Source: a bacterium
Lineage (GTDB): Bacteria; UBP4; UBA4092; JAOAEQ01
Assembly (NCBI GenBank): GCA_026416715.1
Contig: JAOAEQ010000005.1
Span: 62,001-126,000 of the forward strand
DNA: 64,000 nucleotides
Reading direction: 5' to 3'
Both the position numbers and the translations under genes were made by a program. Shown here in pieces: positions 29,400-32,141 of this stretch. The notes under the pieces were generated by a model, which saw only the letters and a list, made by a program, of their open reading frames with translations, was not told where the DNA came from and ran no database searches. Positions within the stretch are counted from its first letter, which is position 1. Each line of letters opens with the position of its first letter.

Positions 29400-32141
29400 C
29401 TATAATTCTTTAACCGCATCAACAATTTTTGAATCTAATCCTTTGAAATTCTGGATATATTCAATTCGTTCAAGTCGTAATTGATGTACTAATTCTTCTA
29501 TTTTAACCTCGGGATAAAATTTTGTTAATTCAAATCGATTGATATCCATACCTTCTACACTGTTAGGAACCATCACATTCCAATATTCATCTTTCTTCCA
29601 TTCAATAGAACCTCGCGCAATACCTCGAATGATTGCAGCCATTTCTGGTATCTGGACTCGTAGTACTTTTTGTCGGACAACTTTTGTCCCCTCTTCAGAA
29701 ATTTCGGTTATTTCACCTACTCCGCCAGTGTTCAATAAATAACAATGTACTTTCTCCGGATGTGATTTTAAAAAGTTGTAGAAAATATTGCCTTCTTCAG
29801 CTTCACTACCAACTATGAAAGGATTAGTTCCTACTTCACGCACGGATTCGCCAGCTCGGCGCGGGTCTGAACCCGAACTCTCGATTGATTCTCCAAGCAT
29901 AAACGCAGCTGCTGCTTGTTCGATAGTTAATTTGGATACGATTGGAACGACTGTATTCCTGCGAGTGATAAAAGCAACAATCATACCGTCAACTTCTTCT
30001 AACGGCGGTAAATTAATACTCGGACTTGCATAGGTACCAAAATCTGAGCGCTGCATAATTCCGCGTCCATTTCCGGTAAGCGTTTCATCATCAAAAAGAA
30101 CATTACCGAGATAATCTACCATAACATTTTCGAAAATAGCGTTGGGAGTTGTTGCCGCTTGATAGATTAATGGCTGGACTTCCGGATTAACCCCTTCCGT
30201 TTTAAGATAGAACCCTTGTTCTGTTCCTAAACAAGCCCCATCTTTCCGTAATGCAACAAAATCATCCTGTACGATTTCTATTCCTTCACCTTTTCCGGTC
30301 AAACCATGGTCATGACAGGAATGAGTTGTTTTCCCTGTGGCAGTTAATCCGAAAATAATCATACTATATTTACGAATCTTACCATCTATACCACGAGCTT
30401 TCAGGATTTTTGCGCCTGCATGTAACCCAAGCATACCTTGTTCTTTCGCGTGCCACATTGCCATCCGCAAAAATCCTTTTTTTGCTTCTCCATAATAATC
30501 TGACCCAAGCACATAGGTTATCCCAATTTCCGGAAACACCAATATCTGTCGGTCTTTTTCTTGCCATTCTGGAATATAAACGAGGTTAAGCAATGGTCCT
30601 TTTGTTTTTTCTTTTAAAGGCAACAATGTTTGGTTAATCATATGCGCTAACCGAACCATCTCTTTTCGATGAACGGAAACAAATAAACGGCATCGAGGCG
30701 CAAAATAATTATTATCTCCCATAGTTCGTTCAGTGCAGACGAATGGGGCTCGTTTTAAATATTTATTGACTTCTTCAATTGTTCGGGGTAGACTTTTTAA
30801 TATTTCTTTCTGTCGCGGATTCAATTTTGACTGCATTACCCGTGGACTACCAACATACACGGTCAATCCTGCACTGCGATTTTTTACGGTAGAAACAAAA
30901 TTATAATTCCCGAACCGAGTTTTCGTACCATAAGGTTCTGCCATGCGTTTCGCTTCAAGCGGAGTAATATGTTGTACATTCGACTGTTGATATAATTCCG
31001 TTACAGCTGCACTTAATAATTTCGTATCAATCTGTGGAAGTTTTAATTCTAAAGCAACCGGCATAACAATTTCTTTCATCGGTTTCATATATTCGCCGGA
31101 AATAATAATCTCGCGCATTTTCCGTTGGACTTCGAAAACCGGATGGACAGTATTAATTTGATATGCAGCCGCGAAATTGAATACTTCTTTAAAAAATTCG
31201 GTTTGTAATGCTTTCCGTTGATTGTTGATTACTAAAGCATGCGGATTAAAAAACGGCTGTTTGGCATTGACTAATAGAGATAACGCTTCTTCTGGTTTCA
31301 ATCGCTTCGCTAATTTTGGATCATTCACGTCAGGTACAAGAAAAAAGAATAGTTTGATACGAGTCGTATCGAGGTATTTCTCCTGACCACCGATCCAAAG
31401 TGGGTCGAGCATTATATATCCATCTTTTTCTTTACATTTTTTCAACAGTTCTTTAATTCGCGGATTAATTTTAGCTGTGCTGGATTTGAGATAAAATTTT
31501 CTATCAGAAACATGAGTGGATAACCGTCCTTTTTCACCACCAAGATGTTCAACATAAATCCATTCATTCGAATGAATCCGAGCGCGATCCATTTGTAATA
31601 ATAAAAAACTATGAGTCGAACGACCACTATCGGTCAATCCGGTGATAACGACTCCTTCACCATTAACATCAACGAGTGCTCCCCGGATAAAATGTACCGC
31701 ATTGTGCTCTTCAGAAATATCTAACGCTATGCCAAGCGCTAAAGACCGTACTTCACCATAAAAGTTTGAACTCAATATAAATCCGGTTTTACTTCCTGAA
31801 TGATAAAATAACCCCGGTGCCATATCAGTTATTCCACTAATTGCATAGAGTGTCCCATGAGGACGTAGACTATGGTCAAGGAGTGCAGGATACCAATTTT
31901 CACGCCAGAAATCATCTAGATGCGCATCATTAGTTCGTAATTGCAAAATTATCCCATTGAGGTTTGCGTTCCAAATATAAAGTGAGTCGTATCCGAGATA
32001 TCGTTCAGCAAGTTTAATCAACTCATTTCGTTCCTGCAGTGAAATATTAAGGTTACGTGATATCGGTTTCGGTTCAGCCAATGGTATCACTTCATTTACT
32101 TTTTCATGGCTTGGTTTTGGTTTATCTTTTTCTTTTTTCAT
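29400..32141 (-). CDS. Tandem PEPCK-fold protein: degenerate N-terminal module plus ATP-type PEP carboxykinase-like C-terminal module
   Basis: 913 residues, far longer than normal ATP-PEPCK (about 520-540). The C-terminal module (about 440-913) has the PEPCK features: YYGEAKKGF (549-557) with the metal Lys, LHAG (metal His), P-loop GLTATGKTTHS (598-608), VQDD metal Asp (624-627), and ENVMVDYLGNVLFDDETLTG (671-690). The N-terminal module (about 40-330) aligns to the same layout: RYLGYDSLYIWNANL, NFYGEVRSLALG (126-137), VHFIRG, and GLTDSGRSTHS (168-178). There the P-loop Lys is Arg174, and the metal Lys and DD acids are missing. The second half could catalyse PEP/oxaloacetate chemistry while the first serves as scaffold or regulatory domain; this is inferred. 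It is divergent from standard PEPCK families. Confidence 0.85.
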   Translation of the reverse strand: MKKEKDKPKPSHEKVNEVIPLAEPKPISRNLNISLQERNELIKLAERYLGYDSLYIWNANLNGIILQLRTNDAHLDDFWRENWYPALLDHSLRPHGTLYAISGITDMAPGLFYHSGSKTGFILSSNFYGEVRSLALGIALDISEEHNAVHFIRGALVDVNGEGVVITGLTDSGRSTHSFLLLQMDRARIHSNEWIYVEHLGGEKGRLSTHVSDRKFYLKSSTAKINPRIKELLKKCKEKDGYIMLDPLWIGGQEKYLDTTRIKLFFFLVPDVNDPKLAKRLKPEEALSLLVNAKQPFFNPHALVINNQRKALQTEFFKEVFNFAAAYQINTVHPVFEVQRKMREIIISGEYMKPMKEIVMPVALELKLPQIDTKLLSAAVTELYQQSNVQHITPLEAKRMAEPYGTKTRFGNYNFVSTVKNRSAGLTVYVGSPRVMQSKLNPRQKEILKSLPRTIEEVNKYLKRAPFVCTERTMGDNNYFAPRCRLFVSVHRKEMVRLAHMINQTLLPLKEKTKGPLLNLVYIPEWQEKDRQILVFPEIGITYVLGSDYYGEAKKGFLRMAMWHAKEQGMLGLHAGAKILKARGIDGKIRKYSMIIFGLTATGKTTHSCHDHGLTGKGEGIEIVQDDFVALRKDGACLGTEQGFYLKTEGVNPEVQPLIYQAATTPNAIFENVMVDYLGNVLFDDETLTGNGRGIMQRSDFGTYASPSINLPPLEEVDGMIVAFITRRNTVVPIVSKLTIEQAAAAFMLGESIESSGSDPRRAGESVREVGTNPFIVGSEAEEGNIFYNFLKSHPEKVHCYLLNTGGVGEITEISEEGTKVVRQKVLRVQIPEMAAIIRGIARGSIEWKKDEYWNVMVPNSVEGMDINRFELTKFYPEVKIEELVHQLRLERIEYIQNFKGLDSKIVDAVKEL

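Follow-up and report, generated by a model that had tools for sequence, protein, structure and literature searches.

A degenerate PEPCK-fold module fused upstream of an ATP-type PEPCK, with a probable regulatory role

The 913-residue protein described here joins a PEPCK-fold module that has lost its catalytic residues to an intact ATP-type PEPCK, and the first half probably controls the second. Its gene lies in a window of 64,000 nucleotides, the whole stretch of DNA that was analysed. The best reading, to which a probability of slightly under 0.6 is given, is that of a catalytic PEPCK joined to a regulatory pseudo-PEPCK module whose dead cleft senses an anionic metabolite or nucleotide. The original prediction had called the upstream copy a pseudo-enzyme acting as a scaffold or regulator. 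The loss of catalytic residues stands, a regulatory role is now the best reading, and the scaffold survives, as an assembly role, as the main rival.

PEPCK works at the point where glycolysis/gluconeogenesis and the TCA cycle branch, and accounts of it usually mention little regulation of the protein itself. If the present reading is true, a built-in control or assembly device exists in the only PEPCK of many archaea, several Asgard lineages included. The catalytic half is of a known kind; the module, like the architecture as a whole, seems not to have been described before. In the open-licence literature no description was found of a two-module PEPCK, a pseudo-PEPCK, the module family or the gene cluster of AAT-module fusion, PEPCK and flotillin discussed below, which is weak evidence. 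The earlier concern that homologues of about 900 residues might already be described found no support in that literature.

Gene layout and the two halves

Described ATP-PEPCKs consist of a single module of approximately 530 residues, whereas here an inactive PEPCK-fold module of about 320 residues is fused upstream. In a Pfam scan of the 913-residue protein, PF01293 (PEPCK_ATP) was found in the second half only (residues 419-866, E 6e-52). The NCBIfam model NF006821 (PRK09344.1-3, 525 positions) matches residues 381-911 at model positions 13-522 with an E of 3e-128. The C-terminal part thus makes up a full PEPCK on its own, with some 380 further residues in front of it. No Pfam or NCBIfam family claims these residues, the only sign being an HprK match below threshold at the P-loop, and the family of the N-terminal module lacks a model in both libraries.

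The motifs quoted in the original prediction are all present in the open reading frame, and the P-loops, G168-T176 and G598-T606, are 430 residues apart. Its double PEPCK layout is likewise borne out, as the halves match by profile comparison and the N-terminal half takes a PEPCK fold in prediction. The extent of the first copy is corrected to about residues 32-350, which form a complete small PEPCK fold (Table 1). The neighbours of the gene, named by eye as thioesterase-like, RpoN and mannose-1-phosphate guanylyltransferase, gave no functional lead.

Table 1. Features of the fused gene, in window positions, and loci of the related bacterial cluster
Feature	Coordinates	Strand	Basis
913-residue bipartite PEPCK gene (pseudo-PEPCK module + catalytic PEPCK)	29400..32141	-	one intact ORF; full-length homologues, 17 genomes
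N-terminal PEPCK-fold module, residues 32-350	31092..32048	-	AF2 pLDDT 88.4; VIA Z 28.8 to 2pc9_B; HHalign to PEPCK 97-98%
Degenerate P-loop GLTDSGRST, residues 168-176; R174 = Lys254 equivalent	31614..31640	-	residue mapping
N192-E193, counterpart of the PEPCK metal pair Asp268-Asp269	31563..31568	-	residue mapping
Basic motif GGEKGRLST, residues 201-209	31515..31541	-	near-invariant in fusions; missing in stand-alone and AAT-fused modules
Inter-module linker, residues 351-385	30987..31091	-	low model confidence; poorly conserved in alignment
Catalytic ATP-type PEPCK, residues 386-913 (subfamily PRK09344.1-3 / NF006821)	29403..30986	-	NF006821 E 3e-128; Z 37.4 to 2pc9_B
YYGEAKK, Y549-K555 = Y207, K212, K213 equivalents	30477..30497	-	invariant in 15/15 fusions
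Intact P-loop GLTATGKTT, residues 598-606	30324..30350	-	K604 and T605 invariant
QDD, D626-D627 = D268-D269 equivalents	30261..30266	-	invariant
PEPCK / FloT-like flotillin / AAT-module cluster	L022:6251-12342, L021:3-6836, L086:931-7455, L087:5234-10896, L088:8057-13820

Fold and ancestry of the N-terminal module

The structure of the N-terminal module was predicted from an alignment of 21 sequences. The AF2 model of the isolated module has a pLDDT of 88.4 and a pTM of 0.86, and it superimposes on 2pc9_B (VIA) with a Z of 28.8 and an rmsd of 3.0, 307 of 341 residues being aligned at 14% identity. Foldseek gives an E of 6e-14, and all structural matches among the best 50 listed are PEPCKs. Predicting the module alone, as proposed earlier, thus returned a bilobal PEPCK fold. 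The C-terminal half, taken from the full-length model, matches 2pc9_B with a Z of 37.4 and an rmsd of 2.7 over 481 residues. The full-length model has a pTM of 0.61 and an N-terminal half partly below pLDDT 50, and the relative placement of the halves in it is unreliable.

PPi-type PEPCKs are about double length, and this identity was considered on account of size. They too are large PEPCK-type enzymes that carry out the same reaction, but the fusion is mostly archaeal and possesses a standard ATP-type C-terminal half. No PPi-PEPCK is found among the structural matches listed, and nothing among them points there. PPi-PEPCK is reported to have no evolutionary relation to the ATP and GTP enzymes and to be absent from archaea (PMC8100219).

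Profile-profile comparison (HHalign) of the two halves reaches 95.9% (E 6e-9), and the 202 matched columns run collinearly until the catalytic core ends. With a broader alignment of the module this rises to 97.9% (E 5.5e-13), so the internal repeat is not due to chance. A recent internal duplication was rejected because the module is about equally far from its own C-terminal half and from canonical PEPCK (97.4%, E 1.3e-11); the C-terminal half itself is close to canonical PEPCK (E 1.5e-35). The module also reaches 95.6% against HprK, whereas PEPCK and HprK compared directly in the same set-up reach 2-23%. Being near to both, the module family bridges PEPCK and HprK by sequence, and these profiles would place it between the two. 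Missing from the family libraries searched, it supplies a link between the two enzyme families. The first half belongs to a separate PEPCK/HprK-like family and is not a decayed duplicate of its partner. Of the two copies of PEPCK originally proposed, what remains is a degenerate PEPCK fold upstream of an intact PEPCK, the former drawn from another family.

The module family resembles HprK (PF07475) locally at the P-loop and weakly in the LDP.WIGG region, with an E of 1e-6 to 2qmh/1jb1. Unlike HprK, the module of the fusion matches bilobal PEPCK folds, and its P-loop and catalytic Asp are degraded. A plain HprK domain found no support as an identity for the N-terminal half, since sequence profiles find HprK first in the PDB and yet the predicted fold is the bilobal one of PEPCK. 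Under the curated HprK cut-offs, the N-terminal half scores 11.9-13.3 bits against 33.3 for PF07475 and 13.6 against 240 for TIGR00679. Genome G000 encodes a separate, genuine HprK besides the fusion.

Active-site residues and conservation

When residues were mapped in E. coli PEPCK numbering, the C-terminal half matched the whole ATP-PEPCK model with all catalytic residues. R422, Y549, K554, K555 and H574 correspond to R65, Y207, K212, K213 and H232, and K604, T605, D626, D627 and R693 to K254, T255, D268, D269 and R333. All ten are invariant in 15 of 15 fusions, in keeping with the original statement that the second copy retains its catalytic residues. From what is established for the family, the catalytic half is expected to be an ordinary ATP-PEPCK.

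The N-terminal half shares the fold but fails the ligand set of an active PEPCK (K212, K213, H232, K254, D268 and D269), which is replaced by R132, S133, R153, R174, N192 and E193; in addition, S175 stands for T255. The two positions equivalent to K212 and H232 are Arg in 17/17 fusions, and K213 is likewise lost. The P-loop Lys position is K, R, V or I across the fusions, so the earlier report of a change from Lys to Arg is correct for the window protein, but this Arg is shared with G041 only. In one fused module DYDIAT replaces the whole P-loop. The claim that the metal Lys and both acidic residues are missing holds for K212, K213 and the first Asp; the second position has remained acidic (E193 in the window protein) and is D or E in 15/15 fusions. 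Some fusions, mainly from Bathyarchaeia, retain a canonical GSGKST P-loop and an acidic pair in the N-terminal half, and these may have residual ATP binding or catalysis.

Despite its losses, the dead half is under strong purifying selection. For comparisons with measurable synonymous change, dN/dS is 0.04-0.06 in the N-terminal half and 0.04-0.08 in the C-terminal half, ratios that are rough, dS being high. The N-terminal half evolves faster (mean column identity of 56% vs 78%) and possesses 55 invariant columns, including R132, R153, R188, K204, R206, R214, K255 and R261. Strongly conserved in the fusions are GG(E/Q)KGR(I/L)ST and an ERKFY-type stretch, followed by LDPxWI and DTTRI-type stretches. 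LDP.WI is common to the PEPCK fusion and the AAT form, whereas GG(E/Q)KGR is confined to the PEPCK fusion.

Distribution and origin of the fusion

The search for the 900-residue form suggested earlier found it to be widespread, with 17 distinct fusion genomes, mostly archaeal, a count that takes in the window and two fusions split by contig ends. Statements on distribution refer to surveys that each sampled about 390 genomes, with most homologues coming from MAGs. Full-length fusions of 58-66% identity occur in MAGs labelled Bathyarchaeota, Helarchaeota, Sigynarchaeota, Freyarchaeota, Jordarchaeia, Altiarchaeales and Euryarchaeota, and further fusions in archaeal relatives. A bacterial fusion is found in RBG_13_61_14, labelled Deltaproteobacteria. 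The few bacterial cases among mostly archaeal fusions suggest transfer between the domains. Contig-split genes excepted, the fusion is the sole PF01293 gene in G000, in G041 and in each tested archaeal MAG with a complete fusion.

In the tree of the N-terminal module, the fusions form one clade with a support of 100 and the AAT-linked modules another with a support of 92, stand-alone modules lying outside. By this phylogeny, the fusion of PEPCK and module is shown to have arisen once. The fusions also group together in the tree of the catalytic half, where the module-less relatives L036, L134 and L140 fall among them (L139 is cut by its contig). This topology is consistent with one gain of the module and later losses. 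Because close relatives of the catalytic half do without the module (L036, L038, L134 and L140), it is dispensable for PEPCK function.

A regulatory role for the module

In the proposed working of the fusion, the C-terminal 528 residues would carry out the chemistry of ATP-PEPCK, oxaloacetate + ATP <-> PEP + CO2 + ADP. The N-terminal 320 residues would derive from a separate, once-catalytic family; with their metal and nucleotide chemistry gone, they would now act on the PEPCK to which they are joined. The old active-site cleft, by this model free of metal, would take up an allosteric effector, an anionic metabolite or nucleotide, and its binding would be passed on to the catalytic half. The best guess for the effector is a metabolite of the PEP/oxaloacetate/aspartate pool, and the physiological logic would be control of the flux between aspartate/oxaloacetate and PEP. 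An anion-binding cleft is suggested by the replacement of both metal-site ligands, K212 and H232, with invariant Arg and by the new invariant Lys and Arg residues at the old nucleotide site and beyond it. The conserved basic residues might just as well make up a surface for protein contacts instead of a ligand site.

Tandem homologous halves that arose by internal duplication, with one turned regulatory, are familiar from hexokinase I, whose N-half is inactive, and eukaryotic PFK-1. In the present fusion, unlike these, the dead half has its source in a family that is older and evolved separately. Malic enzyme of the MaeB type also combines an enzyme of central carbon metabolism with a dead enzyme-like domain, and there the dead domain carries the allosteric control. 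Once this inactive PTA domain is removed, acetyl-CoA, aspartate and other effectors no longer exert control (PMC8100219). As it acts at the same metabolic node, it provides a direct precedent for a regulatory module, although PTA is unrelated to its partner and the dead domain here is a distant relative of the catalytic one.

Aspartate aminotransferase fusions and the assembly alternative

The module is also found C-terminal to an aspartate transaminase (AAT) in proteins of about 780-810 residues from five bacterial genomes with five different family codes (G002, G059, G103, G135 and G345; the G002 protein is cut by a contig end). The AAT part is typical, that of G059 matching PRK06107 (E 5e-137) and 6f35 (E 2e-116). 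In 5/5 loci a divergent PEPCK gene and a flotillin gene are both found no more than about 3 kb from the fusion gene. The PEPCK matches NF006821 with an E of about 1e-85 in the two scanned, and the flotillin was identified with the FloT model in three (E 5e-86 to 2e-113) and by BLAST in the other two. The P-loop of the AAT-fused module is intact in two proteins and altered in three. The module is thus linked to the oxaloacetate-PEP step in two ways, once in cis and once in trans, and its own chemistry is lost in both PEPCK-linked forms. G345 has, besides the divergent cluster PEPCK, a canonical one of 539 residues (G345:C1:289451-290845), which may mean that the enzyme of the cluster is specialised.

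It is conceivable, if doubtful, that both roles exist side by side, with a PEPCK in the fusions controlled by an effector bound in a dead second PEPCK site, derived from an unrecognised kinase family intermediate between PEPCK and HprK, and with the same module family, fused to AAT, assembling AAT and PEPCK on a membrane platform of flotillin in bacteria. Were this true, a new regulatory and assembly layer would operate at the PEP-oxaloacetate node in archaea and bacteria.

The main rival, which could hold alongside the regulatory reading, is that the module serves in docking or assembly and not as a ligand sensor, forming a pseudo-dimer with the catalytic half or recruiting AAT for the handover of oxaloacetate. 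In bacteria the AAT-module fusion would perform the same task in trans, perhaps placed at the membrane by flotillin. The constant clustering of the three genes, the ordinary transaminase character of the AAT part and the loss of P-loop residues in both PEPCK-linked forms speak for this, as does an AAT-like ORF that adjoins two ordinary PEPCK genes (L014 and L017). Against it, no AAT or flotillin homologue was present in the flanks examined around the fused PEPCK genes, and the invariant basic residues occupy active-site positions, which fits ligand binding better than a plain surface. On balance, an assembly role is somewhat unlikely as the explanation.

Stand-alone modules

Stand-alone archaeal module proteins of about 310-390 residues retain the Lys, the His, a GKT or GKS P-loop and the DD pair in 27/27 sampled. 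A family of about 320 residues with GTGKTTH and SDDW motifs is represented by L081:6510-7499 and L082:6503-7459, both on the minus strand, and by L109-L129 (about 1381-2480), and it has no Pfam or NCBIfam model above cut-off. Most genomes with a stand-alone module contain no C-type PEPCK at the threshold used, so that this form exists independently of it. The stand-alone proteins are candidate kinases. With the module in three states, active-looking alone, AAT-fused and PEPCK-fused, the origin of a pseudo-enzyme regulator becomes directly testable.

These relatives bear on whether the module of the fusion is still catalytic, by HprK-like protein phosphorylation or nucleotide hydrolysis, which would make the protein bifunctional. 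The stand-alone proteins match HprK (TIGR00679 E 5e-8; HHalign 95.6%) and keep the P-loop and DD, and several fusions combine GSGKST or GSGKTT with an acidic D269 position. The window protein, on the other hand, has Arg at the P-loop Lys, Asn at D268 and Arg and Ser at the metal ligands, and other fusions carry V or I at the P-loop Lys or, in one case, the DYDIAT loop, making a catalytic module improbable. That the N-terminal half is a non-functional relict or an assembly chimera, as its degraded catalytic residues and faster evolution might imply, is ruled out for practical purposes by a dN/dS of about 0.05, the 55 columns without variation and a length and order that stay constant across 17 genomes of many lineages.

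The neighbourhoods of the stand-alone modules are varied, some of them in central carbon contexts, with no consistent partner. In a bacterial genome that contains no PF01293 PEPCK (G010), a 600-residue protein (L010:499-2298, minus strand) has a P-loop region like that of the module (APTGTGKST, HSDDW), set in a longer and otherwise unassigned chain. A stand-alone module in L162:1-9466 adjoins an ORF that by eye is triosephosphate-isomerase-like and has archaeal-type PEP-carboxylase-like and aminotransferase-like ORFs nearby. In L081:3830-7499, again named by eye, 6-phosphofructokinase-like and glucan phosphorylase-like ORFs adjoin the module.
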